Of a stretch of 64,000 nucleotides of DNA, positions 3,802-25,554 are shown one piece after another. Position 1 is the first letter of the stretch; each line of letters begins with the position of its first letter. The position numbers were made by a program, and so were the translations under genes. This DNA comes from Devosia sp. 1566. GTDB lineage: Bacteria; Pseudomonadota; Alphaproteobacteria; Rhizobiales; Devosiaceae. The notes under the pieces were generated by a model. That model saw nothing but the letters and a program-made list of their open reading frames with translations. It was not told the DNA's origin and made no database searches. The stretch spans positions 558,001 through 622,000 of the forward strand of contig NZ_CP034767.1 of NCBI RefSeq assembly GCF_004005995.1, written 5' to 3'.

Positions 3802-4011
3802 AGTTTGCTCCTTGCAAGATGCTGTCCGGGCAGACTGGCTAAGCAGGGTTAAAGCAAGGTGAACGCCACGCTCGTGCTTGAGGCGCGCTCCGTCTCCAGC
3901 AGGCAGTAGTTGCCCCGGCTTGACCCTCTCCCACGCCGCGCATCTCAATGCGCCAGGCCGTCCCGTGGCTCAGCAAGAGATCGGCTCGGATCCATGTTTA
4001 AAAGCTGGTGG

Positions 4012-4032
4012 GTGCAAGGTGCAAGGTGCAAG
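4012..4032 (+). repeat. Three tandem copies of GGTGCAA
   Basis: Three perfect 7-base units stand directly before the GGAGGAGG ribosome-binding region of the ABC transporter gene. The unit length is not a multiple of three. Confidence 0.85.
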
Positions 4033-4054
4033 GGGAGGAGGCGGCAAGGCGGCC

Positions 4055-5803
4055 GTGGCACGGCTAGAGCCACTGCGTCACCTGTTGCCATATCTTCTGC
4101 GCTACCCGGTTCGGCTTTGCTTGACCCTCACCTTCTTGGTGTTGTCGACGTCGGCGTCCTTGTTCATCCCCCTGTTTTTCGGGCGTATGATCGACACCGG
4201 CTTTGTGGCAAGGGACCTGGGTACGGTGGGCCATCATGCCTGGATCATCGGACTATTCGGGGCCGCCGCCGCCCTTGCCAATGGCATTCGCTTTTATCAC
4301 ATAGCCTATATCGGCGAGCGCATCGTCGCCGATATCCGTTTGTCCGTGTTCACCCATCTCCTGAGCCTCGATCCCGCCTTCTTCGATCGCCACCGCGTGG
4401 GTGATCTCGCATCTCGCCTTAATGGCGATGTGTCGACCATCAAAGCCGCAATCACCGCCACAGCGTCAACCGCGCTGCGGGCTCTGGTCACCATGGCCGG
4501 GGCGTTCCTGTTCATGCTGACTACGAATGTGTTCCTCACAGTCGCCGTGGTCATGGCGGCGCCGTTCATCATGCTGCCGCTGCTGCTCATGGCGCGCCGC
4601 TTGCGCAGCATGTCTCGGCGCAGCCAGGACGCGCTAGCTGATCTTGCGGCCCGCTCCACCGAAGTGCTGAGTGCCATGCGCACGGTGAAATCCTTTACCC
4701 GCGAGCGTGAGGAGGTTGGCCGTTATCAGGCAATCGGGGAGGGCAGTTTTCGCTCCGAAATCGGACGGCTCAAGTCGCGCGCGGTAATGATGTCGCTGCT
4801 GATGCTGCTGTCGAGTACCGCGATGATCTTCGTGATCTGGTGGGGCGCCCAGGCGGTCTTCCATGGGCTGGCCAGCACAGGAGAACTGACTCAATTTCTG
4901 CTTTATGCCTGGATGGGGGCAGGGGCGCTCGCCACCCTATCGGAGGTGGCCGGGTCGCTCCATGTGGTCGCCGGTTCAACCGAGCGCGTGGTGGAAATCC
5001 TGAGCACCCCCGCAACAATCGCCACCCCCGCTGCGCCCGAGGCCTTGCCCGCAGACGGCACGGGAGTCATCGCGTTCCGCAACGTCACTTTTCGCTACCA
5101 GCCAGACGATCCGGAACCTGTGCTTGACCGCCTGAGCTTTGAGGCCAAGAGCGGCCAGACCATCGCCCTGGTGGGATCCTCCGGCGCGGGCAAGTCCACC
5201 ATCTTTTCGCTTCTGCAGCGATTTTATGACGTCGAGAGCGGCGCGATTCTCGTCGACGGCGTGGATGTGCGGCGGGCGGATCTGCATCAGTTGCGCCGCC
5301 GAATTGCGGTGGTGGAGCAAGAGCCCACCATCTTCTCCGGCACCGTCGAGGACAATGTCCGCTTCGGCGACACGCAGGCCAGCCGGGATGCGGTGGTTGC
5401 TGCTTGCGAGATGGCGCTGGCGCACGAATTCATCACCGCGATGCCGCTGGGCTATGACACGCCAGTTGGCGAGCGTGGCGTGACCTTATCAGGCGGGCAG
5501 CGCCAGCGCCTGGCCATTGCCCGCGCCGTGCTGAAAAACGCGCCGATCCTGCTGCTCGACGAAGCCACCAGCGCCCTCGACTCCAACAGTGAGCGGCTGG
5601 TGCAGACGGCCATTTCCCGGCTGCGCAGTGGGCGCACGACCCTCGTGATCGCTCACCGCCTTGCCACTATCCGCACAGCCGATACCATCCTGGTGATCAG
5701 CCGTGGCCGGATCGTCGACCAGGGCTCGCATGACGAACTGATGGGCCGCGATGGGCCATACGCCGACCTCGCCCGCCTGCAGTTCAGTTTGGCAGTTGCC
5801 TGA
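4055..5803 (+). CDS. ABC exporter half-transporter (MsbA/LapB type)
   Basis: A half-size exporter of about 582 residues: an N-terminal six-helix ABC transmembrane domain (about 10-300), then a nucleotide-binding domain with Walker A GSSGAGKST, signature LSGGQ, Walker B ILLLDEATSALD and H-loop IAHR. The GTG at 4055, downstream of GGAGGAGG, is preferred because the frame upstream encodes low-complexity sequence and the conserved domain starts at ARLEPLRHLLPY; a start as far upstream as 3878 is open. Exporters of this class move lipids, polysaccharide parts or peptides. Its place beside polysaccharide and lasso-peptide genes makes it a candidate exporter for either, but it is separated from both by the Wzc-like gene and is not clearly in an operon with them. 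Confidence 0.85.
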   Translation: MARLEPLRHLLPYLLRYPVRLCLTLTFLVLSTSASLFIPLFFGRMIDTGFVARDLGTVGHHAWIIGLFGAAAALANGIRFYHIAYIGERIVADIRLSVFTHLLSLDPAFFDRHRVGDLASRLNGDVSTIKAAITATASTALRALVTMAGAFLFMLTTNVFLTVAVVMAAPFIMLPLLLMARRLRSMSRRSQDALADLAARSTEVLSAMRTVKSFTREREEVGRYQAIGEGSFRSEIGRLKSRAVMMSLLMLLSSTAMIFVIWWGAQAVFHGLASTGELTQFLLYAWMGAGALATLSEVAGSLHVVAGSTERVVEILSTPATIATPAAPEALPADGTGVIAFRNVTFRYQPDDPEPVLDRLSFEAKSGQTIALVGSSGAGKSTIFSLLQRFYDVESGAILVDGVDVRRADLHQLRRRIAVVEQEPTIFSGTVEDNVRFGDTQASRDAVVAACEMALAHEFITAMPLGYDTPVGERGVTLSGGQRQRLAIARAVLKNAPILLLDEATSALDSNSERLVQTAISRLRSGRTTLVIAHRLATIRTADTILVISRGRIVDQGSHDELMGRDGPYADLARLQFSLAVA

Positions 5804-5907
5804 ACCGCAGGCCTTCGGCGTGAGCCTCGCCTAAGTAGTCTTCACAACTCTGCCGTCAAAGACCGCGTTCATCATTGGCGTTACAACAGTCCTGCTGAAG
5901 GTTGCAG

Positions 5908-8298
5908 ATGCAGGAGCCGGCCATATTGAAGGACACCCAATCCAGCAGCCATTGGTCTGCCGGCTCCGCCCGCCACCGCAATCTCGAACTGGTCAATACC
6001 GTGCGGCGCCCTGAGCTCGACGATGAGCTCTCATCCGATATTCGCTTCATCGATATTGGCAAGATCCTGATGGCGCTCCGCCGCCAAATGCCAGTTGTGC
6101 TCGCCGCAGCACTGCTTGGCGCCTGCTTTGGCGTTGGTTACCTCATGCTCGCGCCGCGCAGCTATGTTTCGGTCAGCCAGATCATGATCGACCCCCGGGT
6201 AGGCGCCGTGATCAATGACGAAGAGAGCACATCCTCGCTGGCGGGTGGCGAGACTGACATCCTCAATCAACTTGAGGTCCTGCGATCCACCAGGCTTGCG
6301 GGCGAAGTCGCGCGTGGCGAAAACTTCGGTTCGGACCAGACCTTCCTCAACCCGCCGCCTTCATTTACCGGCCGCGTGCGCGGCATGATCGGCGATCTCG
6401 TCGGAATGCTGCTGAACCGGCCGCCAGTGGAGCCGGAGCGCCTGACCGAACTCCCCGACGACATGGTCGCCGGCCTGCTGCGCCGAAACGTTCTCGTAGA
6501 GCGGGTCGGCCGCAGCTATGTGATCAGCCTGGGCTATCGTTCGCCAGACCCGGAGCTTGCCCATCGGATTGCCTCTGCTTACGCCGACGCTTTCGTGCAG
6601 GACCAGCTCAACACCAATCTCGATGCATCACGGACCGCGGCGGACTGGCTGCAGCAACGCTTGACCGAGCTGAGCGTCAGCCAGCAAGAAGCCAGCCGTG
6701 CCGTCGAGGAGTTTCGTCGGAGCGCCGACCTTTCTCTTGCCGATAGCGACAATCTCGTCACCCAGCGCTCCGAAACGCTAACCCAGCAACTGGTCTTGGC
6801 CCAAGCCAATACGGCGCAAATGCGGGCACAGGCAGAGCAACTGCAAGTAACTCTGGCGGGTGGTCCTGAAGGGCTGGCCGGGCAGTCGCGAGTGCTATCC
6901 GACGGCAGCCTTGATGCTGGCAATGTCGCAGAGCTGCTCAGCCGCCAGAACACTATCACGGCCCGGATCGCCGAGATCACCAGCAATTTCGGACTCGATC
7001 ATCCCCAGATCGCTGCCCTCGAGACTGAGCTCCGTTCCGTGAGGAATGAGATTTTCAATCGGCTGCGTGACAGGCTCGACTATTATCGTGACCAGGTCGC
7101 GGTTGCCGAACGACGCGAGGCGGAACTGCGTAACAATCTGGCGGCGGAAAGCGCGCTGGCTTCGCAGTCCAACCAGGACCGCGTGCAACTCAACGAATTG
7201 CAGCAACGCGCCGAAGCCCTCAATCTCTTGTATAATTCTTTCCTGTCCCGCTACGAAGAACTTCTGCAGCGCCAGTCATTTCCGATTCCGACGGCCCGCA
7301 TCATCAGCCCTGCCGAAATGCCACTGGCTGCCTCCAGTCCTAACTTGCTGTTCTCGCTGATCGGCGCGACCATGGGGGGCCTGTTCATCGGCGCGCTGCT
7401 CGCCTTTCTGCGCGAAATCCGAGACCGCTCCTTCCGCATCGGCGAACAAATCACCAGCGAACTTGGGCTACGGTTTGTTGGCTATCTGCCCTGTCTACGT
7501 GGGCGGCGCAGCAAGGCAGGTGAGGGCCAGACGGGCACGATTTTCAAGGAGGCCTCTGTTTACCGCGCCGCTCACCAATTGATCCTCCGCCAGAAGCCGT
7601 CCGCACCCACTTCCGCCTTTGCCGAAACTCTGCGTTCGGGCAAGCTGGCGCTGGATGCGGCAGCCCCGAACAACAATCAGGTCGTCGGCATCGTTTCGGC
7701 GCTCCCGGGCGAAGGCAAGACCACTGTCGCGATAGCCTTTGCCGAAATGCTCTCTGCCGGAGGCTCGCGGGTCGTGCTGCTGGATGCCGATCTTCGGCAT
7801 CAGGGCGCAAGTAGGCTCCTCGCGCCCGGGGTACGTCCAGGCTTGCTCCAGATCGCTGAAGGCGCGGACTGGCGCAGCCTGATTTGCATTGAGGACGCAA
7901 CCGGTCTCTCAGTGCTTCCGGCAGGGGGCGCCGGTGCCAACGCGAAGAACCGGGAGTTCCTGGGCTCACCATCCATGCTGCAGTTGATTGGTGAGCTCCG
8001 CAAGGAGTTTGATTATGTAGTCATCGACCTGCCGCCCTTGGCGCCGGTGGTTGACGCCAACGTCGTCCTGCCCTGGACCGATGCCTTCCTGCTGGTGGTG
8101 CAGTGGGGTAAGACCCCGCGCCGACTGGTGCGTTCGTTGCTCGAGAAGGACTCGGTGCTGGCCGCCCATATTCAGGGCGCGCTGCTCAACAAGGTCAACT
8201 TTGCAGATCTACCCAGCTTCAGTGCGCCAGATGGGTCGGAACGGTATCTCAGCACCTTCAAGAACTATTACCGTGAGCCAGCGCGGGGTAAAGCGTAG
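5908..8298 (+). CDS. Polysaccharide co-polymerase / tyrosine autokinase (ExoP/Wzc-like)
   Basis: An inner-membrane protein of about 796 residues controlling polymerisation and export of exopolysaccharide. The Wzz-like chain-length domain is bounded by helices at about residues 60-85 and 480-500, with a long coiled-coil periplasmic region between (repeated Gln/Glu/Leu heptads). The cytoplasmic BY-kinase domain has Walker A ALPGEGKTT near residue 600, Walker A' VVLLDADLRHQG near 620 and Walker B YVVIDLPPL near 702. A short tail with YLSTFKNYY offers Tyr residues but no long Tyr cluster. The ATG at 5908 is chosen over the TTG at 5902 because GAAGG lies six bases before it. Confidence 0.88.
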   Translation: MQEPAILKDTQSSSHWSAGSARHRNLELVNTVRRPELDDELSSDIRFIDIGKILMALRRQMPVVLAAALLGACFGVGYLMLAPRSYVSVSQIMIDPRVGAVINDEESTSSLAGGETDILNQLEVLRSTRLAGEVARGENFGSDQTFLNPPPSFTGRVRGMIGDLVGMLLNRPPVEPERLTELPDDMVAGLLRRNVLVERVGRSYVISLGYRSPDPELAHRIASAYADAFVQDQLNTNLDASRTAADWLQQRLTELSVSQQEASRAVEEFRRSADLSLADSDNLVTQRSETLTQQLVLAQANTAQMRAQAEQLQVTLAGGPEGLAGQSRVLSDGSLDAGNVAELLSRQNTITARIAEITSNFGLDHPQIAALETELRSVRNEIFNRLRDRLDYYRDQVAVAERREAELRNNLAAESALASQSNQDRVQLNELQQRAEALNLLYNSFLSRYEELLQRQSFPIPTARIISPAEMPLAASSPNLLFSLIGATMGGLFIGALLAFLREIRDRSFRIGEQITSELGLRFVGYLPCLRGRRSKAGEGQTGTIFKEASVYRAAHQLILRQKPSAPTSAFAETLRSGKLALDAAAPNNNQVVGIVSALPGEGKTTVAIAFAEMLSAGGSRVVLLDADLRHQGASRLLAPGVRPGLLQIAEGADWRSLICIEDATGLSVLPAGGAGANAKNREFLGSPSMLQLIGELRKEFDYVVIDLPPLAPVVDANVVLPWTDAFLLVVQWGKTPRRLVRSLLEKDSVLAAHIQGALLNKVNFADLPSFSAPDGSERYLSTFKNYYREPARGKA

Positions 8299-8325: not shown

Positions 8326-9420
8326 TTAGTTCTGCTCCGGCAGACGCCGACCTTCAAACAGGCGCAATGCCGCTTCCGATGCGAGGGCCCGGGCCACCTC
8401 CTTGGCGTATTGCGTCCGCTGACCGAGGCACAGCTCCCACAGCACGTCCCGTCGCATGGGCCAGACCAGCTCAGGGTCATCCGGGGTAAGGATCATGCGG
8501 GTCAGCGTTTCGTCGGAGATGTTCGCCAGGACGGGTGGTCCTCGGTCAAGTGGTTGATTATCCTTGGCAAAAAGCGCCGTTACGGCGCGTAGCGCTAGGA
8601 GCGCCGTGCCGCCCAGACCCTGGTCGGCGGCCGTGGCGAGGAACCGGGCAGGGGCCGCTAGATCGCCCTGCAACAGCACGAAAAGATCGCATACATGAGC
8701 GGCGGTGGCTTCGCGGTTGTAAAGCCCCTTGGCGATGCTGATGGCTGAGATCAGAGGAATGTTGTGCCGGGAAAGGCAGGGGAGCTGCGTTCCTGAGAAC
8801 TCGATTTCATCAATCATTTCAAGATATTGACTGGCGCGTCGAGGGGCGGGGGAGCCGGGTTGTTGGAGGCGGTAGTGCAGGTCGATGGTAGTGGGAAAGG
8901 CTCCGGTCTTGACCAGATGCTCTTCGCCAAGGAACAGGCGCCACCAGAGCGAGGTGGAAGCTGATCTATAGTTTAATGCTTCCAATGACTTGGCTGCGGC
9001 GCGATGATGGCGGCGGGGGAGCAGCACGTCGATATCCGCAACCGGGCGGGTGAAAAAATCACCGTGAACCAGGCGCTGCTGCAGCGGCCCCTTCATGTAG
9101 ATGAACGGAGTCTGAACGGCTTCGAGCGTGGCAAAAACCGCTAGGCTTTCGCGTAGCAGCGTCGAGTTGATCTGGAAGGTCCTGAACTTGTAGGCGGCAA
9201 CGGCGGCCCGCTCGCTCGGGCTCAATCGGTGGCGCAGCGGCTCGCTGATGTAAAGCAGGATCTTGTTGGCGATGGCGATGCGCAAGACTCCGCTGCAATC
9301 GCCGGCATAACCGGGCGCGGGACCATCTGGTGCGCCAGGGGCAAAGTGCTGGCGCAGCGCGTGGACCACGGTTTGTAGCTCGGCGCGAATTGGCGGGCCC
9401 CGCTGGATAGCTGACAGCAA
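8326..9420 (-). CDS. Lasso-cluster nucleotidyltransferase family protein
   Basis: A 364-residue protein of the NTP_transf_5 family. The core is FIYMKGPLQQRLVHGD followed by RPVADIDVLL, where the DxD acidic pair should bind metal and nucleotide. Relatives sit in lasso-peptide clusters (paeninodin and pseudomycoidin types) next to an HPr-kinase-like kinase and are implicated in tailoring the phosphorylated C-terminus; others sit in polysaccharide loci. Here it is transcribed divergently from the precursor gene 169 bases away, with the kinase at the far end of the facing operon. Both contexts fit, so the acceptor is uncertain. Confidence 0.75.
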   Translation of the reverse strand: MLSAIQRGPPIRAELQTVVHALRQHFAPGAPDGPAPGYAGDCSGVLRIAIANKILLYISEPLRHRLSPSERAAVAAYKFRTFQINSTLLRESLAVFATLEAVQTPFIYMKGPLQQRLVHGDFFTRPVADIDVLLPRRHHRAAAKSLEALNYRSASTSLWWRLFLGEEHLVKTGAFPTTIDLHYRLQQPGSPAPRRASQYLEMIDEIEFSGTQLPCLSRHNIPLISAISIAKGLYNREATAAHVCDLFVLLQGDLAAPARFLATAADQGLGGTALLALRAVTALFAKDNQPLDRGPPVLANISDETLTRMILTPDDPELVWPMRRDVLWELCLGQRTQYAKEVARALASEAALRLFEGRRLPEQN

Positions 9421-9506
9421 GTAGATAGCTGTTGTTTGCCCGCGAGAGAACTCGAATCAGCGCCAATCTTCCGTATACGTGTCTCTACCTAGTAGTTAAT
9501 GACGCG

Positions 9507-9536
9507 TTGACTTGTTGTGACCCAAATGAGCAGGAT
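9507..9536 (+). promoter_or_regulatory. Candidate promoter of the lasso operon
   Basis: TTGACT at 9507-9512 and CAGGAT at 9531-9536 are separated by 18 bases and lie 54 bases before the precursor ATG. The -10 match is weak. Confidence 0.25.
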
Positions 9537-9589
9537 CAGTTGTGTTGCAGCAAGCGCACAAGGTTCAACTGTTCTGGCTGGAGATTGAC

Positions 9590-9730
9590 ATGACGAAACT
9601 CACTTATACTGCGCCGCGGCTGGTCCGCCACGGTTCTATTGAAGCCGTAACCAAGGGTGCATCTACGGGTAGCGCACTGGACGCGACTTTTCCCACAGGC
9701 ACCCCCTTTGGCGACCTTACCTTCTCGTAA
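9590..9730 (+). CDS. Lasso peptide precursor (A)
   Basis: A 46-residue precursor. The ATG at 9590 is chosen because GGAG lies six bases upstream; an in-frame GTG at 9542 lacks support. Residues 6-23 match the lasso leader pattern YxxPxLxxxGxxxxxTxG: Tyr6, Pro9, Leu11, Gly15, Thr21, Gly23. Tyr, Pro and Leu are what the B1 recognition domain grips, and Thr21 is the conserved -2 residue before the cleavage site. Cleavage after Lys22 gives a 24-residue core beginning GASTGSALD, so Gly1 can condense with the side chain of Asp9 (nine-residue ring), leaving a 15-residue tail ending GDLTFS. The C-terminal Ser is a likely phosphorylation site given the kinase gene downstream. A hairpin separates it from B1. 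Confidence 0.9.
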   Translation: MTKLTYTAPRLVRHGSIEAVTKGASTGSALDATFPTGTPFGDLTFS

Positions 9731-9737
9731 ACGCGTA

Positions 9738-9769
9738 TTCGCTGCTGGGTCGTCGCATTCGGCAGCGAA
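9738..9769 (+). promoter_or_regulatory. RNA hairpin between precursor and B1
   Basis: A perfect 8-bp inverted repeat TTCGCTGC / GCAGCGAA with a 16-base loop fills the 63-base gap after the precursor gene. It has no T tract, so it is more likely an attenuating or mRNA-stabilising element that raises precursor over enzymes than a full terminator. Confidence 0.55.
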
Positions 9770-9793
9770 CATTGCCCTTGGCAGGAGCGGGGT

Positions 9794-10096
9794 TTGACCC
9801 AAGAGCTGAACCAGGCCCCCAGCGGCACCCTGACCTTCCGTGCCGTTAACGGCGATGCTGTGCTGACCACGGCACTGGGCGACGGCCTTGCGCTGCTGGA
9901 TCTGAGAGCCAACGAATATTTCACGCTCAACGGCGTGGGAGCGCTGCTGTGGCGCCGGTTGCAGGCGCCGCAAAGCAAGGCTGAACTGATCCAGGCGGTG
10001 CAGGCCGAATACGACGTCGATGCGGCGAGCTGTGCCGGGGATGTCGATCTGATGTTGGATGACCTGATTGCAGCCAAGCTTGTGGATGTTCGCTAG
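9794..10096 (+). CDS. Lasso peptide B1, PqqD-like leader-recognition protein
   Basis: A 100-residue protein with the PqqD / RiPP recognition element fold: AVLTTALGDGLALLDLRANEYFTLNGVGALLWRRL (written in parts in the gene), then two predicted helices. It should bind the Tyr-Pro-Leu leader motif and deliver the precursor to the B2 peptidase. The start is TTG at 9794, six bases after AGGAG. Its end overlaps the start of B2 by 11 bases, as expected of two halves of a split B protein. Confidence 0.88.
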   Translation: MTQELNQAPSGTLTFRAVNGDAVLTTALGDGLALLDLRANEYFTLNGVGALLWRRLQAPQSKAELIQAVQAEYDVDAASCAGDVDLMLDDLIAAKLVDVR

Positions 10097-10529
10097 ATCA
10101 CTGCTGTTCCGATTGAGACGGTTGCGCGCCGCGGACTACCGTCTGCTGGCGGAGGCCATCATCCTGTTGCTCCAGGTTCGCCTTGGTCTCAGCTTTTCCT
10201 CGTTGCAACAGCTGCAGCACAAGTTTCTCGGCCCTGATCGGCAAGAGTCGGCGGCGAGGGCGGATGTGCCACGCATCGCCCGGGTCGTTCGCAACGCGGC
10301 GCGACTTGTTCCCGGAGCCAGTTGCCTGACCCAGGGGCTGGCCTACCAGATCCTGCTGCACCGGCGCGGCGTTCCTTCCGAACTCAAGATCGGCGTCCGG
10401 CACAACGAGCGGGGCGAATTTGCCGCCCATGCCTGGGTAAGCGTCGCCGGGCAGGTGCAGCTCGGGGGTTCGCGGCAACAAGTCGCCGCTTTCGCTCCAA
10501 TCGCACAATTCGGCGCTGGCAGAAAATGA
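10086..10529 (+). CDS. Lasso peptide B2, leader peptidase
   Basis: A transglutaminase-like cysteine protease of 147 residues that removes the leader. Cys80 in GASCLTQGLA and His115 in AAHAWV are the catalytic pair; no clear third acidic residue is visible where McjB has Asp. The N-terminal half (residues 15-48) is hydrophobic and helical, as usual for B2. The ATG at 10086 is preferred to a TTG at 10068. The stop overlaps the next ATG by four bases (ATGA), so translation with the cyclase is coupled. Confidence 0.87.
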   Translation: MFARSLLFRLRRLRAADYRLLAEAIILLLQVRLGLSFSSLQQLQHKFLGPDRQESAARADVPRIARVVRNAARLVPGASCLTQGLAYQILLHRRGVPSELKIGVRHNERGEFAAHAWVSVAGQVQLGGSRQQVAAFAPIAQFGAGRK

Positions 10530-12394
10530 GCGGCATTGCGGGCCTCCTGCTGGCCAAGCATAGCCGGGTGGCACGTCCCGAGTGGCTGGATCGCCAAAGC
10601 CGAGCCTTGCATATGCGCGGGCCCGACGGGCAGGGGAGTTGGAGCGGGGGCCGGGTTTATCTCAGGCACGCACATCGCCACAGCACGGGCTTTGTTGAAA
10701 GCAACTTGGCGGCGCCCGAGGCGGGGATCGTCGGGCTTGCCGATATCCGGCTCGACAACCGGGCGGAACTTGCCGACCTGCTCGGTGCCGATGAGCGCGG
10801 CGCCAGCGATCTTGCGCTGGTGATCCTGGCTTATCGCCACTGGGGGCCCGATTGCTGCAGCCGCTTGCTCGGGGATTTCGCCTTCGCCCTTTGGGACAAG
10901 GGGTCACAGACCCTGTTCTGTGCGCGAGACCAATGGGGTGTGAAGCCGCTGTTTTACGCGCAAAGTGGCGCCGGGTTTTCCTTCGGTTCCGATCCTGGAG
11001 CCCTGATCTGCGACGACGACGGGGTCAACGAGCATCGCGTCGCCAGCTTCATTGCCGGTTTTGTGGATGATCCCGCCGCCACCGCCTTGAGCCAGGTCCG
11101 GCGCCTGCTGCCCGGCCATTGGCTGCAGCTCAAGGACGGCGAACTGGTGACGCGGCGCTATTGGAGAGCGCAGGCAGCTCCCGACGCAGGTCTTTCACCT
11201 CCTGAAGCCGTCCGCGACCTGTTGCAGCAAGCCGTCCGGGCTCGGCTGCGCGGCGCGCCGGCGATGGGGGCCATGTTGAGCGGCGGCCTCGATTCATCTT
11301 CGGTCGTGGCGACTGCGGCACGCCTGCGCCCGGGCGTGAGCCTGCGCACCCTGTCGTTCGACTATCCCGCCACGCCCGAGCTCAGCGAGCGCCGCTACGT
11401 CGATGCCGTGCTCGCCGCTTATCCGCTCCAGCCGAGTTTTGTTCCCTTCGACGATCTGGCACCCTTGCAGGGGGTTTCCCGACTGGCGCTTCGTGATGCG
11501 GATCTGCTGTTTGCCCCAGGCACGGGCAAGATGCTGCGCTTGTTCAAAACCGCAAAGGAACTGGGCGCCACCGTGCTGCTGGACGGCCATGGTGGCGACG
11601 AGGTGATCTCCCATGGTTATGGCCGGCTGGCGGAACTGGCGCAGGCGGGTCGGTGGGGTGCACTCTATGGTGAGTTGCGTGGCGTTGCGGCGACGTTCAA
11701 CGATAGTCCCAGTCGCGTGTTCCTGCGCTATTTTGCGGCTTATGGGCCGGGGCGCCGGCTGGCGGGGAGGGCGCAGAGGCTTTGGTCGGCATTGCGGCCG
11801 CCCGAGACCGGTGCCGTGGGGCCCACCGCCTTTGTCGCGGCCGACTTGGCGAAGCGCATCTGCCTTGCCGATCGCTATGCCGAGTGGCGGCAGGCGCTGC
11901 GGACCGCCCATGCGGATGAGGACAGCCTGCACCGCTGGAACGTGTCGTCGCCTGCGGTGGGGCAAAGTTTTGAGGCGCTGGATCGCGCCGCCACGCTTGC
12001 CGGGGTGGAACTGCGCTTTCCCTTCTTTGACCGCCGCCTGGTGTGCTACGCGCTGAGCCTGCCACCGAGCGAAATCCTGCGCGATGGGTGGTCGCGCAGC
12101 GTGCTGCGCCGCGCCATGCAGGACATCCTGCCGCCGCAGGTGCAGTGGCGGCGTGACAAGACCGATTTCAGCTCCGAACTGCGGCTTGGCCTCGTCAAGC
12201 ATCATGGAGGGGAGCTCGACGCGTTGGACGGCGACAGCTTCGGGGTTAGCCTGTTCCTGAACATGGACCAAGTGCGGTCGGCTATTGCGCGGCTCCGTGC
12301 CGACCCGCTCCGGCTCGACGCTGGTGAGCTTTTCGGGCTGTGGCGCGCATTGTTCCTGTCGCTTTGGCTGCAGAACCGGGCGGCTACCTCATGA
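10526..12394 (+). CDS. Lasso peptide macrolactam synthetase C (AsnB-like)
   Basis: A 622-residue asparagine-synthetase homologue that adenylates the ring Asp of the core and closes the isopeptide bond. The N-terminal glutaminase-like domain (1-200) begins MSGIAGL: the nucleophilic Cys2 of AsnB is replaced by Ser, so no ammonia is made, as fits a cyclase using the peptide amine. The synthetase domain has the PP-loop LSGGLDSSS near residue 251 and DGHGGDE further on. ATGA overlaps link it to B2 upstream and the kinase downstream. Confidence 0.9.
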   Translation: MSGIAGLLLAKHSRVARPEWLDRQSRALHMRGPDGQGSWSGGRVYLRHAHRHSTGFVESNLAAPEAGIVGLADIRLDNRAELADLLGADERGASDLALVILAYRHWGPDCCSRLLGDFAFALWDKGSQTLFCARDQWGVKPLFYAQSGAGFSFGSDPGALICDDDGVNEHRVASFIAGFVDDPAATALSQVRRLLPGHWLQLKDGELVTRRYWRAQAAPDAGLSPPEAVRDLLQQAVRARLRGAPAMGAMLSGGLDSSSVVATAARLRPGVSLRTLSFDYPATPELSERRYVDAVLAAYPLQPSFVPFDDLAPLQGVSRLALRDADLLFAPGTGKMLRLFKTAKELGATVLLDGHGGDEVISHGYGRLAELAQAGRWGALYGELRGVAATFNDSPSRVFLRYFAAYGPGRRLAGRAQRLWSALRPPETGAVGPTAFVAADLAKRICLADRYAEWRQALRTAHADEDSLHRWNVSSPAVGQSFEALDRAATLAGVELRFPFFDRRLVCYALSLPPSEILRDGWSRSVLRRAMQDILPPQVQWRRDKTDFSSELRLGLVKHHGGELDALDGDSFGVSLFLNMDQVRSAIARLRADPLRLDAGELFGLWRALFLSLWLQNRAATS

Positions 12395-13347
12395 GCGGAT
12401 CTGCTCTCGAGCCGGGCTTTCGCTATCGCCTGTTTGGACTGACGGTGTTGTCCGAGATCGAGATGCCGCAGCTGCCCGCTGCGCCGGTCGGCAGGGTCGA
12501 CCTCACGATCAGCCGGACCGCGATAGATCATCCGCGGCGTCGCGAGCCGGGTGTGGTGGCCGAGTTCGGGCCGGCAATGCAGTACCTGGCTTGGGAAACG
12601 GTCGGTGCGTTTCGCATCCGCAGGGCCGACCTGATCGAGGTCGATCCCAATGCGGGGGTAAGCGATGCCCTGGTGGCATTGCCGCTTTTGGGTTCGGTGA
12701 TGGCAACGCTGCTGCATCGGCGCGGCCTGCTGGTGCTGCATGCCAGCGCCGCCACGCTCGGTGGGCACGGCATTGCCTTGCTGGGCGACAAGGGCGCCGG
12801 CAAGTCGACCACCGCCGCAGCCCTGGTCGCCGCCGGCTATGCGCTGCTTTCCGATGATGTGGTGGCGCTGGCCTTTACCGGCGGCAACCGGATCGAAATC
12901 CTGCCAGCCTACGGCCAACTCAAGCTTTGGGATAAAGCCGTTGCAGGCCTGGCGCCGCTACCCTTGCGCGAGCAGGGCCAGCTGCACCCGGCGATTGCCA
13001 AGTCGCAATATGGCCTTGCGACAGGATTCTCGGCCGAAGCAGCGCCGCTCAGCCGCCTTTATGTGCTCGGGCGCGGTGACACGGCGGGGGTGACAATGGT
13101 GGAGCCCGGCGAAGGGCTCGCGGCGCTGCTGCGCTACGCTTACATGGCGCGCTTTGGCGAAGCAGGGTTTGGCCCCAGCATGGCGGCCTTTTTCGGGCGC
13201 GCTGCTGCCCTCGCCAGCGCTGGCAAGGTGCGCATACTGCAGGTTCCCGAGGGCGTGCAGCGCATCGGGCAAGCAATTGCGGCACTGGAGCATGATCTGG
13301 ATCTTAGACCTGCGGGTGAGCTGCGCGCTAATATTGGCGCGATGTAA
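12391..13347 (+). CDS. HPr-kinase-like lasso peptide kinase (K)
   Basis: A 318-residue HprK-related protein. Walker A GDKGAGKST is at residues 132-140, preceded by the family's LHASAATLGGHG and followed by LLSDDVVAL (about 152-160). The CBS-type N-terminal domain of true HprK is missing and replaced by a shorter unique region. Homologues in lasso clusters (PadeK, ThcoK, PsmK) phosphorylate the C-terminal residue of the precursor; the precursor here ends in Ser. The ATG overlaps the cyclase stop by four bases, so it belongs to the lasso operon. It has no role in PTS control deducible here. Confidence 0.83.
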   Translation: MSGSALEPGFRYRLFGLTVLSEIEMPQLPAAPVGRVDLTISRTAIDHPRRREPGVVAEFGPAMQYLAWETVGAFRIRRADLIEVDPNAGVSDALVALPLLGSVMATLLHRRGLLVLHASAATLGGHGIALLGDKGAGKSTTAAALVAAGYALLSDDVVALAFTGGNRIEILPAYGQLKLWDKAVAGLAPLPLREQGQLHPAIAKSQYGLATGFSAEAAPLSRLYVLGRGDTAGVTMVEPGEGLAALLRYAYMARFGEAGFGPSMAAFFGRAAALASAGKVRILQVPEGVQRIGQAIAALEHDLDLRPAGELRANIGAM

Positions 13348-13445
13348 GTATAAGTCCGGTGCTGTGCTGGGTCGGTGCTTCTGGTAGGCCAGATTGGTGT
13401 TGCAACAATGAGGCGCGCAGCTGTGGCGACAAGGAAATTATTCCG

Positions 13446-14687
13446 GTGACGACCATGCCGCTGAACAGCCGCAGCTTTGCTCGAACGGCGCTGCTTGCCG
13501 TAATTTTGGCGCTGACGAGTTCGGTGCAGGCCAAGGCCGGCGATTATCGGCTTAGTGTCTCGGATCGCATTGCCATCAAGGTGGTGGAGTGGTTGCCCAG
13601 CGCCGGCGAATTCCGGGAATGGACCGCGCTCGCCGGAGAAGCGTCGATCGGCCCCAACGGCTCGGTGCCGGTGCCGTTTCTGGGCGAGGCTGCGGCGGCG
13701 GGAAAGTCGCCGGCCGAACTGGGCGGGGAGATCAGCAAGGGGCTGCAGCAGGTTTTCGGGCTCAATATCGCGCCCGATGTCACCGTCGGGATCATCGCCT
13801 ATGCCCCGGTTTTTGTGACCGGCGATGTGCAGGCGCCAGGGCAGTTTCCCTTCACGCCGGGGCTCAATGTCATCAAGGCGGTAAGCCTCGCAGGCGGCGA
13901 GCGCATTTCTGCCGATGCCTTGCTGCGCGGTGAGCGGGATCTGATCAGCGCTAGTGGCAGCGCGGAAGTGGCCCGCGGCAAGCTGCACCGCCTGCTGGCG
14001 CGGCGCGCGCGCCTCACCGCCGAACTGGATGGGGAAAGCCAGGTGCCGGTCCCGTCCGAACTGAGCGCGGTGGCGGATGGGGCCGCCGTGGTGGCGGTAG
14101 AGCAGGCGATCCTACGCGCCAATGCCAGCCGGGCGCAGGCGCAGGCGGCATCGCTGCGCGAGCTGATCAACCTGCTCAATCGCGAGCTGACAACGCTGGC
14201 GCAAAAGCAGGCGACGGTGGAGCGGCAACTCGAGATTGCCCGCCGTGAGCTGGGCAATATCAAGTCACTGGCCAGCGATGGCCTTGCCGCCAATACGCGG
14301 GTGTCGGCCATTGAGCAGAATGTGGCGGAACTCGAAACCCGGCTGCTCGATATTGGCACCGCCATTCTGCGCGCCCAGCAAAGCATCAGCGATACCGACC
14401 GAAACCTTGCCGCGCTTGACAATGATCGCACGGCCGAGCTCACGGCTGAGCTGCAGCAGGTGGATGGGCAGATCGACGAGCTCAATGTGCAGCTTAATAC
14501 CCAGCAAGCGCTGATCACGGACGCCATAATTTTGGGCGCCGCGCTGCAGGCCGAAGGGGATGAGCTGGTCGCTTATAGCTATTCCATTGTTCGGGCCGGC
14601 AGCGAAACCGCGGGCACCGAGACCAGTGAACTGCAGCCCGGCGACGTGATCCGGGTCACCCGCTCCATCAGGGTTGCGAGCCCATGA
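13446..14687 (+). CDS. Polysaccharide export protein (ExoF/Wza-like)
   Basis: A periplasmic or outer-membrane export protein of about 413 residues. A signal peptide (SFARTALLAVILAL...VQA) precedes a poly-export domain (DYRLSVSDRIAIKVVEW) and an SLBB segment (VFVTGDVQAPGQFPFTPGLNV). A long coiled coil (about residues 170-350) follows, the arrangement of rhizobial ExoF. The GTG at 13446 has AAGGA ten bases upstream; ATG at 13455 is an alternative. It lies 98 bases after the lasso kinase gene, so cotranscription with it is possible. Confidence 0.8.
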   Translation: MTTMPLNSRSFARTALLAVILALTSSVQAKAGDYRLSVSDRIAIKVVEWLPSAGEFREWTALAGEASIGPNGSVPVPFLGEAAAAGKSPAELGGEISKGLQQVFGLNIAPDVTVGIIAYAPVFVTGDVQAPGQFPFTPGLNVIKAVSLAGGERISADALLRGERDLISASGSAEVARGKLHRLLARRARLTAELDGESQVPVPSELSAVADGAAVVAVEQAILRANASRAQAQAASLRELINLLNRELTTLAQKQATVERQLEIARRELGNIKSLASDGLAANTRVSAIEQNVAELETRLLDIGTAILRAQQSISDTDRNLAALDNDRTAELTAELQQVDGQIDELNVQLNTQQALITDAIILGAALQAEGDELVAYSYSIVRAGSETAGTETSELQPGDVIRVTRSIRVASP

Positions 14688-14710
14688 CGCATCAATTCGG
14701 AGGTGGCACC

Positions 14711-15481
14711 ATGCCTGCCCACACGCTGACGGTGATGTTGCTGGCCTCCTGTTTTGCCCTTGGCGGCGTTCACGCCGAGGAGCGCGAGCTGGGCGGGAGC
14801 TTTTTCGATGATTTCGACAGGCTGGACTCGGAGCGCTGGTTCGCCTCCGATGGCTGGAGCAATGGCAATCACCAAAGCTGCGGCTGGTCCAAGAACGAGA
14901 TCGCGGTAACCGGGGGCGTGCTGCAGGTGGGGTTTTCCCGCAATCCGGCCGCCAACCGGCTCTATCGCTGCGGGGAACTGCAAAGCCATGCCCGGTTCAG
15001 CTATGGCACCTATGAAGCCCGGCTCAAGACCCCGCCGGAGGCGCCGGGGCTGAACGCGGCCTTTTTCACCTATGGCGGCCCGCCCATCGGCGAGGTGCAT
15101 GACGAGATCGACTTCGAGATCCTGCTCAAGGACCCCGCGCGGGTGCAGGCCGGTGGCTATGTCGGTGGCAAGGGCGTGGAACTGGCCACCCCGCTGCTGC
15201 CGCAGCCGGCCGACAAGGCGTTTATCGATTATGCCTTTGTGTGGGAGCCAGGGCGGGTGCGCTATTACGTCAACGGCGCGCCGGTGCATGAATTAGGGGA
15301 GCCGGCACCGACCCCCGAGCATCAGCAAAAGCTTTACTTCAGTCTGTGGTCTACCGAAACGCTGAGCGACTGGATGGGCAAGTTCCAGGACCCCGGCGCT
15401 CCCCTGACCATGGAAGTGGACTGGGTTGGCTATACGGCCCCTGGGGAGCGCTGCTTGTTCCCCCAATCGATCACCTGCTGA
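14711..15481 (+). CDS. Secreted GH16 beta-glucanase (ExoK-like)
   Basis: A 256-residue glycoside hydrolase family 16 enzyme. A signal peptide ends near HAEE. The catalytic motif EIDFE is at residues 132-136 (nucleophile Glu132, acid/base Glu136), a variant of EIDIE. Related ExoK-type enzymes trim nascent succinoglycan. The ATG at 14711 is chosen for the strong GGAGGT seven bases upstream; an upstream ATG at 14684 overlapping the ExoF-like stop has no such site. Its end abuts a glycosyltransferase gene. Confidence 0.83.
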   Translation: MPAHTLTVMLLASCFALGGVHAEERELGGSFFDDFDRLDSERWFASDGWSNGNHQSCGWSKNEIAVTGGVLQVGFSRNPAANRLYRCGELQSHARFSYGTYEARLKTPPEAPGLNAAFFTYGGPPIGEVHDEIDFEILLKDPARVQAGGYVGGKGVELATPLLPQPADKAFIDYAFVWEPGRVRYYVNGAPVHELGEPAPTPEHQQKLYFSLWSTETLSDWMGKFQDPGAPLTMEVDWVGYTAPGERCLFPQSITC

Positions 15482-15492
15482 GGTGCTTGCCC

Positions 15493-16500
15493 GTGAGCGA
15501 CAGCACGCCTGAGGCCAATGCGAGCCAGCGGGGCGGGGGCCTGGCCGGCGGCGTCTGCGTGATCATTGCGGCCAAGGATGCTGCCGCAACCATCGGGCGC
15601 GCGGTGCGCTCGGCACTGGCGGAGCCGGAAGTGCGGCGCGTCGTCGTGGTGGATGATGGCTCACGCGATGCCACTGGTGAACTCGCCCGGCGGGAAGGGG
15701 CGGGGACGGATCGGGTTACGGTATTGCGGCTCGAGCAGAACCGGGGGCCGGCTTATGCCCGCAACCTCGCCATCCAGAGCAGCGACGAACCGTTCATTGC
15801 CATTCTGGATGCCGATGACGCCTTTTTGCCCGGCCGCTTCGAGCGCCTGGCGCAGTTCAAAGGGGCGTGGGATCTGCTGGCCGACGACATCGCCTTTGTG
15901 GCCGATCCTGAGGTCGTCCTCCCCGAACGTTCGATAGGCGAGCCGTTCTATCTAGGTCTGGCGGCGTTCGTGGCCGGCAATCTGGCGCGGGCGGGGGTGA
16001 ACCGGGGTGAGTACGGGTTCCTCAAGCCTGTGCTGCGGCGCGAAACGCTGCTGCGCAGCGGCGGCCTCTACAACCCCGCGCTGCGGCTGGGTGAAGATTA
16101 TGACCTTTATGCTCGTTTGCTGGCCCGCGGCGCCCGCTTTGCGGTGGTGCGTTCTTGCGGGTATCGGGCGCTGGTGCGAGCCGATAGCTTGAGTGGGCGC
16201 CATCGCACCGTTGATCTGCAGCAATTGGTTGAGGTGGACGCGGCGCTGCTGCGCGATCCCAACCTGCCGCAAGCGGCCCGCAGCGCCCTGCTCGTGCATC
16301 TGCGCCAAACGCGGGCCAAGTTCGAGCTCCGCCGCTTTCTCGATACCCGGCGGCAGCAGGGCCTTGCGGCAGCCTGCCGCCAACTGGGGTTGAGCGGGCC
16401 CGCCTGGGCGGCGGTGGCCGGTGGCATTGTTCGCGACAAACTTGCGACCGGGCAACCGCCGCGTGAGCCGGTGAGGCAGGGGGTGCGTTACCTGCTGTAA
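15493..16500 (+). CDS. Family 2 glycosyltransferase (ExoO/ExoU-like)
   Basis: A 335-residue GT-A enzyme: VCVIIAAKDAAATIGRAV, the nucleotide-binding VVVDDGSRDAT, the DxD-type LDADDAFLPGRF, and a C-terminal GEDYDLYARLL acceptor region. It shares the FLKPVLRR block with the product of 17748-18725, so the two are paralogues. The GTG at 15493 follows GAGG overlapping the upstream stop. It should add a sugar to the lipid-linked exopolysaccharide unit on the cytoplasmic side. Its last 13 bases overlap the convergent polymerase gene. Confidence 0.8.
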   Translation: MSDSTPEANASQRGGGLAGGVCVIIAAKDAAATIGRAVRSALAEPEVRRVVVVDDGSRDATGELARREGAGTDRVTVLRLEQNRGPAYARNLAIQSSDEPFIAILDADDAFLPGRFERLAQFKGAWDLLADDIAFVADPEVVLPERSIGEPFYLGLAAFVAGNLARAGVNRGEYGFLKPVLRRETLLRSGGLYNPALRLGEDYDLYARLLARGARFAVVRSCGYRALVRADSLSGRHRTVDLQQLVEVDAALLRDPNLPQAARSALLVHLRQTRAKFELRRFLDTRRQQGLAAACRQLGLSGPAWAAVAGGIVRDKLATGQPPREPVRQGVRYLL

Positions 16501-17738
16501 CGCAGAGGGCTGCGGCGGGGAATTTGAGACGCGGCGCGCATGGCGTAAACCAGGGCCAGCAGCACCACCACGGTTTGGAAGCTGAACTGGTAGAACACCT
16601 GCACCTCAACCATGGAGGTGCAAAGGATCATGGTCAGGTAACCGGCAAAGAACGCATTGGCGGCAGAGGGAGCGCGCAGGCTCCAGCGCAGGGTGAGGAT
16701 GAAGGCCGTTGTCAGCAGCACCACCTGGAGGGCGACGCCGACAATGCCGATCTCGACGGCATTGGACAGATAGGTGTTGTGGAAATTGAAGCCACTGCGG
16801 CTGCCGATGCCGAACTGGGCCCACAAGGCTTCGGCAGGCGCAAAGCCATGCAGCCAGAAGGCCCGAAAACCCATGCCGAACCATGGCCGTTGGCTGATGA
16901 AATCGAGCGCAACCGCCCAAAGCTCGGTGCGGCCGGTCAGGGTAACGTCCTTGCCCGAACTCTCGAGCACGAGCTGCATGATCTCGTTCCAGTATGCGGC
17001 GATCAGCAGGGACATGGCGGCAGCGAGCATGAGGAGGGCGGCGGCAAGCACCACCCGGTGCGTCGGAGCGAACCAGCGCATGAGCTGCACAATCATGATC
17101 AAGGCTGCTCCCGGCAAAACCACGATGATGGCCCCGGCCGATTGGGCCAGCACGATCAGCGGCAAAGCGAGCAGCAGCCCGGCAAGCCCGCTCCAGCGTT
17201 CCAGTGCTGAGCCGGCCCGGTCGCCCAGGGTGGCGAGGGACGCCAGGAGGAAGACGGACACCGCAGCGGCAAAGGCATTCTTGCTGCCAAAAATGCCGAC
17301 CCAGGCGCCGATATCGGCGCGCACGCGGCCAAACAACACGCTGGCGATCATGGTGAGGAACATCACGACAAAGATCGCACGCAGGGCAGAGCGCGGCGGC
17401 ACCCGAACGGCAATGGTGATGGCAATGATGACCGTCAACCAAAGCTGGATGGCACCGCGAAAGGAGTCCGGGGGCGCTTCGGACCACAAGGTCGATGCCA
17501 GGCAATAAAGCGGCAGCAGCAGAATAAGCCAGAAGCGCAGGAGGCCCTGGATGTTGTGCCGCAGATTGCTGAGCACCAACACGGCGCCGCAGCCAAGGAA
17601 CAGGAGGATGGCCCGGCTACCCAGCAGCGGATCGAGTTGCAGGGCGCCGAGGCAGATCGCGCTCAACAGGGCGGCGAGATTGAGGCGCATCTGCCAGCCA
17701 AGGCTGAAAGCGCGAGGGGAATGGACTGCGAGCGTCAT
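16488..17738 (-). CDS. Exopolysaccharide polymerase / O-antigen ligase family (ExoQ-like)
   Basis: A 416-residue polytopic membrane protein with about ten to twelve hydrophobic helices. The conserved Wzy/ligase loop is visible: LTGRTELWAVALDFISQRPWFG, then FNFHNTYLSNAVEIG, with the family's Arg and His residues. ExoQ-like proteins polymerise repeat units in the periplasm. It is the last gene of a leftward group (ExoL, ExoM, ExoY, GT2, ExoQ) and overlaps the convergent GT2 gene by 13 bases. Confidence 0.85.
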   Translation of the reverse strand: MTLAVHSPRAFSLGWQMRLNLAALLSAICLGALQLDPLLGSRAILLFLGCGAVLVLSNLRHNIQGLLRFWLILLLPLYCLASTLWSEAPPDSFRGAIQLWLTVIIAITIAVRVPPRSALRAIFVVMFLTMIASVLFGRVRADIGAWVGIFGSKNAFAAAVSVFLLASLATLGDRAGSALERWSGLAGLLLALPLIVLAQSAGAIIVVLPGAALIMIVQLMRWFAPTHRVVLAAALLMLAAAMSLLIAAYWNEIMQLVLESSGKDVTLTGRTELWAVALDFISQRPWFGMGFRAFWLHGFAPAEALWAQFGIGSRSGFNFHNTYLSNAVEIGIVGVALQVVLLTTAFILTLRWSLRAPSAANAFFAGYLTMILCTSMVEVQVFYQFSFQTVVVLLALVYAMRAASQIPRRSPLRYSR

Positions 17739-17747
17739 GGCGACAAC

Positions 17748-18725
17748 TCAACCGAATAGGACGACCGGGTGTCCCCTTCGGGCGAGCCGTTCGCGCACAG
17801 AAACAGCGAGGCGGCGGATGAGAGCGGGCCGGCGCAGCACCGCATTGGCGGCAGTGCCGAACCGGCGCTGTTTGAGTGCTTCGACCAAGTGTTCATAGGC
17901 CAGTTGCTCGCTCAAGATCTGGCGCCGGTGCTCGAAGGCAGCCCGGATGCCGGGAGATGTTGCAGCGTAAACTCGCGCAAGGTCATCATGGCTCTGCAGC
18001 ATGGCGCGCGCAGTATTGGTCGACAGCCGATGCGAGAGCGACGCGCTATGCCGCCGGTAATGATAAAAGCTCTGCGGCGTGACGCAAAGCCTTGCACCCT
18101 CCAGCACCAGGCGCAGCAGCAGTTCGTAGTCCTCCCCAATGCGCAGCTGTTCGTTGTAGCGCGCGGTTTTGGCGAACTGGCGCCGTATCATCGGCTTGAG
18201 ATAGCCGAACTGGACGCTGGCTCCGCGCGCCGCCGCGCGTTCCGTGATCAGCATTTCGGGCGTGATGGTGGTTGGTTCCGACAGTTCCAGGCCGCCGAGC
18301 AAGCGGTGATGCGGCGCCGCTCCCTCCATAAAGAAAGCCAGGTCGTCGGCGACAATGTCGGCCTGAAAGGCACGGGCCAGGTGCAGCAATTGCGCCAGTC
18401 GGTCGGGCTCGATCAGGTCATCGGCATCCACAACGGCAACCCATTCGCCCCGTGCTGCGTCGAGACCCGCATTGCGTGCGGCTGCCGGCCCGCAATTCTG
18501 TGGTAGGGCAAGCAGCCTGAGGCGAGCATCGCTCGCGGCAAGGGAGCGGATGATCTCGACGCTGTTGTCACGCGAGGCATCATCCACCACGATTAGTTCC
18601 AGCTTGGCATGACTCTGGCCGAGCACCGATTGGATCGCGGCGGCCAGAAAGGGTGCGCCGCAGTGATTGGCCATGACGACGCTGACCAGCGGCTCACACC
18701 CCGATTGCACAAGGTGCCCGGTCAC
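17748..18725 (-). CDS. Family 2 glycosyltransferase (ExoO-like)
   Basis: A GT2 enzyme of about 325 residues: LVSVVMANHCGAPFLAAAI, LIVVDDASRDNS, VVDADDLIEPDRLAQL, then YLKPMIRR and IGEDYELLLRL. The GTG at 18725 is preferred; the open frame continues to 19004 but there it only shadows the sugar transferase gene. It lies 37 bases after that gene and 9 bases before ExoQ, so the three form an operon. The likely role is one sugar-addition step for the exopolysaccharide. Confidence 0.8.
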   Translation of the reverse strand: MTGHLVQSGCEPLVSVVMANHCGAPFLAAAIQSVLGQSHAKLELIVVDDASRDNSVEIIRSLAASDARLRLLALPQNCGPAAARNAGLDAARGEWVAVVDADDLIEPDRLAQLLHLARAFQADIVADDLAFFMEGAAPHHRLLGGLELSEPTTITPEMLITERAAARGASVQFGYLKPMIRRQFAKTARYNEQLRIGEDYELLLRLVLEGARLCVTPQSFYHYRRHSASLSHRLSTNTARAMLQSHDDLARVYAATSPGIRAAFEHRRQILSEQLAYEHLVEALKQRRFGTAANAVLRRPALIRRLAVSVRERLARRGHPVVLFG

Positions 18726-18762
18726 CGGAGGTCCCGCCCCATGGGCCGGAGACCACCGAAAC

Positions 18763-19428
18763 TCACCGGCTGCCCTTGCGCACGAGCACGACGACGAGCG
18801 TGCGCAGCAAAATGCTGAGATCGTTGGGCATCGACCAGGTGTGGACATAGTGCTCGTCGAGCGCCACGCGGCTGTTATAGTCCAGATCGCTGCGGCCGCT
18901 GACCTGCCAAAGCCCGGTGATCCCCGGCCTGGCGCTCCAATAGGCCGAGATCGCGTCGGCATAACGGGGCACTTCGGCCTGAACGATCGGCCGCGGGCCG
19001 ACAAGGCTCATCTCGCCCTTGAGCACATTGATCAGTTGCGGCAGCTCATCGAGGCTGGTGATCCGCAGGAATTGACCGAGGGGCGTGATGCGGGGGTCAG
19101 CGCAAAGCTTTTGGCTGGCGTTCCATTCGGCTCGGGCCCCCGGCGAGGCCTCCAGATGGCGGGCAAGCACCTCGGAGGAGTTGACCACCATGGAGCGGAA
19201 TTTGAGACAGCGGAAGCGCCGCCCCTTATAGCCGATCCGCTCATGGGCGAACAACACGGGACCAGGATCCCAGGTGGCGATCATCATTGCAATGATGAGC
19301 ATGGCCGGCAGCGCCAGGAACAGCAGGATGGCGGCCGCGCCTATATCGAAACTGCGCTTCAGCTTGCCCCCGCGCGGCAGTTCCGAGAACGACGAAATTC
19401 GGGAAACATCAGAATTGACCAGCGACAT
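18763..19428 (-). CDS. Undecaprenyl-phosphate sugar transferase (ExoY-like)
   Basis: A 221-residue bacterial sugar transferase that starts the repeat unit by loading hexose-1-phosphate onto undecaprenyl phosphate. One N-terminal helix (about 28-50) is followed by the conserved [30 protein letters not shown] and [14 protein letters not shown] blocks. It lacks the extra helices of WbaP-type enzymes, as ExoY does. The gene leads the exoY / GT2 / exoQ group and has a 354-base upstream region. Confidence 0.9.
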
Positions 19429-24346: not shown

Positions 24347-24487
24347 GTAGTTATGCCCCGGTTTGCTCCAGGGTTCCTCTTGTCGATGTTGATGATGGGT
24401 TTCCAGTTTCTCGCCTATAGAGAGAGGAAACAGGAAACGGCATTGGCGAAGGAGGGCAAAGCCCCCCTCCTGAGTATCGTCGGGGTG

Positions 24488-25552: not shown

Positions 25553-25554
25553 GG

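Follow-up and report, generated by a model that had tools for sequence, protein, structure and literature searches.

A predicted lasso peptide with a lasso kinase and a nucleotidyltransferase partner, encoded among exopolysaccharide genes in Devosia sp. 1566

We analyzed a stretch of 64,000 nucleotides from Devosia sp. 1566 (positions 558,001 to 622,000 of contig NZ_CP034767.1; hereafter, the window) and found that a lasso peptide cluster, consisting of a precursor gene (A), three processing genes (B1, B2 and C), an HPr-kinase-like gene (K) and a divergent nucleotidyltransferase (NTase) gene, is flanked by a Wzc-like gene on one side and a polysaccharide-export gene on the other. On balance, we consider it probable that the predicted 24-residue lasso peptide, of which the C-terminal Ser24 is likely phosphorylated and glycosylated, works together with the surrounding exopolysaccharide. 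Direct observation covers the genes and their order, the integrity of the catalytic residues, the conservation of the core and the proximity to exopolysaccharide genes. A preliminary description of this DNA was right about the cluster and overlooked two facts of greater interest: that it lies among exopolysaccharide genes, and that its core belongs to a conserved family. The parts of the cluster are as follows.

8326..9420, minus strand, divergent: NTase (PF14907; 77.9 bits, cut-off 31.2)
9590..9730, plus strand: A, lasso precursor of 46 aa (NF033521 lasso leader, 23.9 bits, cut-off 19; alignment of 26 precursors)
9656..9682, plus strand: predicted macrolactam ring, core Gly1 to Asp9 (Asp9 in 26/26 precursors; the ring itself is a prediction)
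9725..9727, plus strand: codon for the core's C-terminal Ser24, which is the predicted site of phosphorylation (from Ser conservation)
9738..9769, plus strand: predicted RNA hairpin between A and B1 (folding compared with shuffles)
9794..10096, plus strand: B1, PqqD-like leader-binding protein (PF05402, 64 bits; TTG start)
10086..10529, plus strand: B2, leader peptidase (NF033537, 80.9 bits versus a cut-off of 33; Cys80 and His115 kept)
10526..12394, plus strand: C, macrolactam cyclase of the Asn-synthase type (SGGLDSS loop at residue 252 intact)
12391..13347, plus strand: K, HPr-kinase-like peptide kinase (H117, K138, D155, D156)

Translation and family scans bore out the complete cluster of A, B1, B2, C and K with a divergent NTase that had been described previously, and the A-B1-B2-C-K operon is real, complete and tightly coupled. 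The top NCBIfam match of C was the lasso cyclase model NF033535 (484 bits, below its cut-off of 525). The ATGA couplings noted in the preliminary description were present at B2/C (10526-10529) and C/K (12391-12394), whereas B1 and B2 instead overlap by 11 bases; likewise, its range of 8326..13347 placed the parts properly but was too narrow, as exopolysaccharide genes flank both sides. The hairpin between A and B1, a possible attenuator or mRNA stabilizer, was weak in the window taken alone (z value of –1.3; 23 of 200 shuffles were equally good), and two relatives of the same genus had a similar stem with better values of –3.0 and –2.3.

Precursor A reads MTKLTYTAPRLVRHGSIEAVTK / GASTGSALDATFPTGTPFGDLTFS (leader residues 1-22 and core residues 23-46, respectively). 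Its leader, YTAPRLVRHGSIEAVTK, carries Thr at position –2 and the YxxPxL motif of lasso peptides; the longer pattern YxxPxLxxxGxxxxxTxG, recognized earlier, was borne out by the NF033521 match above cut-off. The window thus contains Gly1, an acidic residue within core positions 7-9 (Asp9) and the B1, B2 and C genes, all of which are expected of a lasso peptide. A core beginning at Gly23, a Gly1-Asp9 ring and a tail ending in Ser had also been predicted, with the proviso that an alignment lacking an acidic residue at ring positions 7-9 would speak against them; Asp31, which is core residue 9, was Asp in all 26 aligned precursors, while core position 1 was Gly in 19, Ala in six and Gln in one.

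Scanning genomes with K yielded 55 loci; 28 of these (L036-L063) were followed, the other 27 being shorter matches located mostly around the P-loop. A core tail with the consensus DAxFPxGTPFGDLTFS was shared by precursors from Mesorhizobium, Brevundimonas, Erythrobacteraceae, roseobacters and a Paracoccus plasmid. Most lasso families have a conserved leader and a variable core; in our alignment, cores shared a mean pairwise identity of 0.52, compared with 0.47 for leader residues 6-22, and the highest information content was found at tail residues 32-46. Among the 24 core codons, synonymous and amino-acid changes numbered 12 versus 3 between the window and G048, 14 versus 4 between the window and G028, and 7 versus 5 between G048 and G028. 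Y6, P9, G15, T21, D31 and F34 were invariant in the 26 precursors and A is therefore not a chance open reading frame, a possibility that the conserved core and the codon pattern rule out. The conserved core is not universal among near relatives, as L042, L043, L063 and the precursors from other phyla deviate. Where the core is conserved, it suggests one conserved partner or role, and a single function common to several genera rather than a toxin arms race. A text search of the open-licence literature with four core pieces (consensus tail TPFGDLTFS) found no paper.

Four Erythrobacteraceae/Sphingomonadales precursors (L041:7166-7321, L045:7140-7286, L049:7207-7365 and L050:1352-1507) carried a Cys at ring position 4 and another in the tail (LTCG), which suggests that a disulfide joins ring and tail in a core that is otherwise similar. 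A Cys pair was also present in the second precursors of L052 and L059, two roseobacter-type loci with three consecutive precursors beside one kinase (L052:6604-7289 and L059:6592-7277); the third of these precursors is Gly/Lys/His- or Gly/Trp-rich with an AFS end.

The His-Lys-Asp-Asp motif was whole in all 38 aligned kinases, including K of the window, in which the motif is spaced by 21 and 17 residues, just as described for BsfK in passages of PMC10368454. Although K resembles HPr kinases solely over the segment that starts at the His and stops shortly after the Asp pair, this stretch contains the residues that lasso kinases need (H117, K138, D155 and D156), and the motif was essential in the paeninodin work according to part of a review (PMC9266682). 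Among the near-relative loci and two plasmids, 31 of the 37 precursors beside kinase genes ended in Ser, as did 29 of the 31 alphaproteobacterial precursors, the window included (exceptions, L038 with FSD and L092 with C). The terminal Ser was retained in 25 of the 26 aligned precursors, and core position 3 varied (Ser 14, Thr 3, Gly 6, Ala 3); the C-terminal Ser is thus favored as the kinase target, and Ser24 is likely the phosphorylated residue. The motif, its BsfK-like spacing and the conserved terminal Ser accordingly lend support to the earlier suggestion of a PadeK-type kinase that would phosphorylate the C-terminus. In a genome of the same order (G069, L025-L030), six kinase relatives were observed, of which five have C and four have B1 as a neighbor; this lineage is rich in kinase-bearing clusters, and the conserved core was not found in them.

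The NTase was located within 20 kb of 31 of 35 kinase places, and its residues D129, D131 and D180 were invariant in all 13 aligned sequences. As a near-constant neighbor of the kinase, it would well be the partner enzyme that the preliminary description had proposed. The further modification raised there as a possibility is consistent with the precedent of pseudomycoidin, where the phosphorylated Ser receives hexoses through PsmN (as given in passages of PMC9266682). A search for solved structures matching the NTase by sequence gave none at E ≤ 0.1. Sequence comparison supports the interpretation of the product as a lasso peptide with a 9-residue ring and a Ser end, served by a lasso kinase and an NTase partner.

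The genes flanking the cluster in the window are listed below; all were assigned by domain scan unless otherwise stated.

3878..5803, plus strand: ABC exporter (membrane and ATPase domains), a possible peptide exporter
5902..8298, plus strand: Wzc-like polysaccharide co-polymerase (Wzz, GNVR, AAA)
13359..14687, plus strand: polysaccharide export protein (PF02563); the true start is probably downstream of 13359
14684..15481, plus strand: family 16 glycosyl hydrolase (GH16)
15346..16500, plus strand: glycosyltransferase family 2; the true start is probably downstream
16488..17738, minus strand: Wzy/O-antigen ligase-type polymerase
17748..19004, minus strand: glycosyltransferase family 2; the reading frame overlaps the next gene and the true start is probably near 18760
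18763..19428, minus strand: priming sugar transferase (PF02397, 208 bits)
19783..20721, minus strand: glycosyltransferase family 2

Past these genes, positions 23750-34079 encode an RNase H, an AAA_25 ATPase, a trypsin-like protein, an NOV_C-domain protein, a resolvase and a 1299-aa protein, and this region is perhaps a mobile or defence island.

To describe the neighborhoods of related clusters, we tabulated gene orders in 24 loci, namely 23 of the 30 near-relative loci and the Paracoccus plasmid, where GT denotes a glycosyltransferase. Together with the annotated plasmids, at least six arrangements were told apart:

ABC-Wzc-NTase-lasso-export-GH16: the window and two relatives
Wzc-NTase-lasso-export-GH16-GT-Wzy: L038
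GH16-GT-NTase-lasso-ABC-priming-export: L036, L037 and L040
NTase-lasso-ABC-Wzc: L041, L045, L049 and L050
ABC-lasso-export: L052 and L059, with Wzc in addition in L048
NTase-GT-GH16-Wzy-priming-lasso-ABC-Wzc: the Paracoccus plasmid

Wzc was present in 13 of the 24 loci, the export protein in 10, GH16 in eight, Wzy in eight and the priming transferase in nine, none of them being present in all. On the Paracoccus plasmid (41.8 kb, 36 annotated features), ~26 genes were glycan or lasso genes by name. The retention of neighbors through changes of order is the pattern expected from selection for joint function. Lasso, sulfotransferase, polysaccharide and transposase genes were also found together on the Sulfitobacter indolifex plasmid pDSM14862_d (L150), where an NTase adjoins the export gene, ~10 kb from the kinase.

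We then compared the frequency of polysaccharide genes near kinases with expectation. At E ≤ 1e-15, the 28 followed genomes contained 32 K places, and PF02563 was found within 5, 15 and 25 kb of 8, 15 and 19 of them, respectively, where 0.26, 0.72 and 1.19 were expected from copy number and genome size (the related genomes are non-independent, and tail probabilities of this test are overstated). In a second comparison, we used 15 marker proteins in seven classes, drawn from the window locus and from the Paracoccus plasmid; the ABC exporter was also searched and left unscored. Loci shorter than 15 kb were dropped (10 of 30 near-relative loci, 8 of 17 lasso loci without K and 1 of 17 kinase-plus-B2 loci); two or more marker classes were found in 14 of the 20 remaining near-relative loci, versus 0/16 kinase-plus-B2 loci, 0/9 lasso loci without K and 0/19 random stretches (Fisher tests, p = 1e-5, 7e-4 and 3e-6, respectively), a comparison in which the origin of the marker set favors near relatives, whereas the PF02563 test is free of that bias. 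The 19 random stretches are those that existed among 20 drawn, and one of the loci classed as without K (L129) later gave a weak kinase match. In a kinase tree, the polysaccharide label was clustered (9 changes versus a shuffled mean of 19), the tree being built by a quick method with 31 of 60 inner branches weak and labels assigned by hand.

The link does not extend to the whole class. In a broad sample of 289 genomes, B2 was found in 30 and K in 26 (E ≤ 1e-12), and the 17 kinase-plus-B2 loci of this sample (window excluded) had other gene orders and other precursors. One marker class was present in two of the 17 and two classes in none; three kinase loci lacking a nearby B2 contained no marker class. 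Other alphaproteobacterial lasso clusters sampled are thus mostly not beside exopolysaccharide genes, and we rejected the broader claim that lasso clusters with a kinase are generally found in polysaccharide loci. Precursor candidates read by eye ended in Ser in L094, L098, L099, L101, L102, L105 and L111, and in other residues in L096, L109 and L110; those ending in Ser fit the kinase reading, not the polysaccharide link.

Within the 75 genomes of the genus, at the cut-offs used, a Wzc relative was found in 33 and an export-protein relative in 31. The three cluster-bearing genomes all agreed in gene order from Wzc to the export gene. In a fourth (G041), the cluster is apparently cut off by a contig edge, which retains Wzc (78% identity) and the terminal part of the NTase gene (79% identity across 52 residues). 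In 24 genomes without the lasso cluster, Wzc and the export gene were on one contig and on opposite strands, 9-11 kb apart in 22 and ~70 kb apart in two. Such pairs indicate a different locus type, not the same locus minus an insert, and insertion of the cluster into an empty Wzc/export site was not supported.

Several observations weigh against a functional link with the exopolysaccharide or against parts of the predicted chemistry. The cluster was present in only three of the 75 genomes of the genus (C at E ≤ 1e-60), 13 of the 32 kinase places lacked PF02563 within 25 kb (some on short contigs), and PF02563 was within 25 kb in just 3 of the 17 kinase-plus-B2 loci of the broad sample, as read by eye, so that the link is confined to some clusters and does not hold for phosphorylated lasso peptides as a whole. 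With a looser cut-off, a weak Wzc match was found in 2 of the 17 lasso regions without K and an export-protein match in one, the polysaccharide-linked loci did not form one clade in the kinase tree, and the origin of the marker set has to be counted here as well. K itself scored below the HPr-kinase cut-offs (PF07475, 29 against 33.3 bits; TIGR04352, 33.3 against 200; TIGR00679, 29.1 against 240), and the L038 precursor has an Asp after its terminal Ser. ABC exporter relatives, found in 21 of the 24 related loci and often adjoining the lasso genes, also occurred in 9 of the 19 random stretches, and the exporter is the least sure part of the picture.

The chemistry, export and matrix role of the predicted product we infer as follows. 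B1 would bind the YxxPxL leader, and K would add one or more phosphates to Ser24 of the still-linear precursor. B2 would then cleave after Lys22, and C would close the Gly1-Asp9 ring around the tail. In line with the proposal made for PsmN in pseudomycoidin, the NTase may use the phosphorylated tail as its acceptor. Export of the product may fall to the ABC transporter. The masses predicted from the core are 2299.06 for the lasso peptide, 2379.03 with one phosphate and 2541.08 with a phosphate and a hexose.

A tentative alternative is that the product is a free secreted phosphorylated lasso peptide, acting as an antimicrobial or signal, which is merely co-regulated with the matrix or held in it and has no role in polysaccharide synthesis. 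Most characterized lasso peptides are antimicrobials or inhibitors, and the frequent ABC transporter relatives would suit such a product, although random stretches contain them too. However, no isopeptidase or TonB-receptor family was found among the window proteins scanned, and the glycan genes remain close despite their shuffled order. Moreover, a tendency to diversify is typical of antimicrobial cores; the present core, by contrast, has been retained across orders, and within the genus its codons differ mostly by synonymous changes.

It is unlikely that the cluster is hitch-hiking cargo in exopolysaccharide loci that are hot spots of exchange, with no functional link. Its rare and patchy occurrence in the genus and its plasmid copies in Paracoccus and Sulfitobacter are in line with such a history; however, two marker classes were found in none of the 16 and nine other lasso clusters sampled, and through all rearrangements the NTase and the lasso operon remain close to each other and to several of the genes for Wzc, export protein, GH16, Wzy and priming transferase. 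The same habit in Bacilli, reported independently in passages of PMC13381572, also argues against it.

We regard as rather improbable the idea that the polysaccharide carries the lasso peptide covalently, as its primer or end-cap, in which case a Ser-(poly)phosphate would mimic a lipid phosphate and the NTase would load a sugar. A polysaccharide growing from or ending in a lasso cap would be a previously unknown kind of glycopolymer, but the usual lipid-linked priming transferase (PF02397) is encoded, so that a peptide primer is unneeded, and the FKRP match was weak, ranking under several nucleotidyltransferases. Least probable is phosphorylation of ring Ser3, since, although the core begins with GAS and both BsfK and LppK act on Ser3 (in the passages of PMC10368454 and PMC13381572, respectively), Ser occupies position 3 in only 14 of 26 precursors and the terminal position in 25.

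We therefore return to a phosphorylated and glycosylated lasso peptide working with the exopolysaccharide. Such a role is likely because a habit described in Bacilli recurs in Alphaproteobacteria with different machinery, a conserved core and several orders. The peptide is a candidate component or regulator of the exopolysaccharide, for which Mesorhizobium, Brevundimonas, Paracoccus and roseobacters offer test cases.

The chemistry has a precedent, as does the idea of a polysaccharide link. Lasso peptides with phosphorylated and hexosylated C-termini are already known from paeninodin and pseudomycoidin (part of review PMC9266682). The paeninodin (PadeA/PadeK) and SyanK/ThcoK systems, as described in passages of the sources, share with the window A, B1, B2, C and an HPr-kinase-like K with the His-Lys-Asp-Asp motif, as well as a conserved C-terminal Ser, and SyanK comes from Sphingobium (passages of PMC9266682). 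In contrast, the window has the conserved core tail (consensus TPFGDLTFS) and a Gram-negative Wzc/export locus; PadeK, ThcoK and SyanK were likened by description, not by sequence. Pseudomycoidin (PsmK, PsmN) likewise combines, in the passages describing it, a kinase and an NTase in a lasso cluster, but it is a Bacillus product, whereas the NTase of the window, an NTP_transf_5-type protein with its catalytic carboxylates and likened to PsmN by description, is divergent and lies between Wzc and the lasso genes.

The closest parallel in setting is the 2026 report of paeninodin-like clusters in capsular polysaccharide loci of Bacilli (PMC13381572), in passages of which the authors regard their role as unknown and suggest biofilm. 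These clusters and those of linear polyphosphorylated peptides (LPPs) resemble the window in their HprK-like kinase, NTP transferase, MsbA-like transporter and polysaccharide neighborhood, and differ in belonging to Bacillota and, for LPPs, in having a SipW-like peptidase and lacking a cyclase; with its cyclase C and B2 peptidase, the window does not encode an LPP. The passages of that report contain no conserved core tail of the kind found here, and its text gave 0 matches to 'proteobacteri' as a word start. BsfA/BsfK of Bradymonas, in passages of PMC10368454, is similar in its HprK-like lasso kinase with the same motif spacing, which B1 aids, and differs in the phosphate on Ser3, Ile at position –2 and a C-terminal Asp. 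In the open-licence literature on lasso peptides with exopolysaccharide, kinase or NTase, we found no report of the alphaproteobacterial family. Within the literature searched, the conserved-core alphaproteobacterial family, the counted link, the rearranged neighborhoods and the near-constant pairing of kinase and NTase are new, and these are what the present analysis adds to the known systems.

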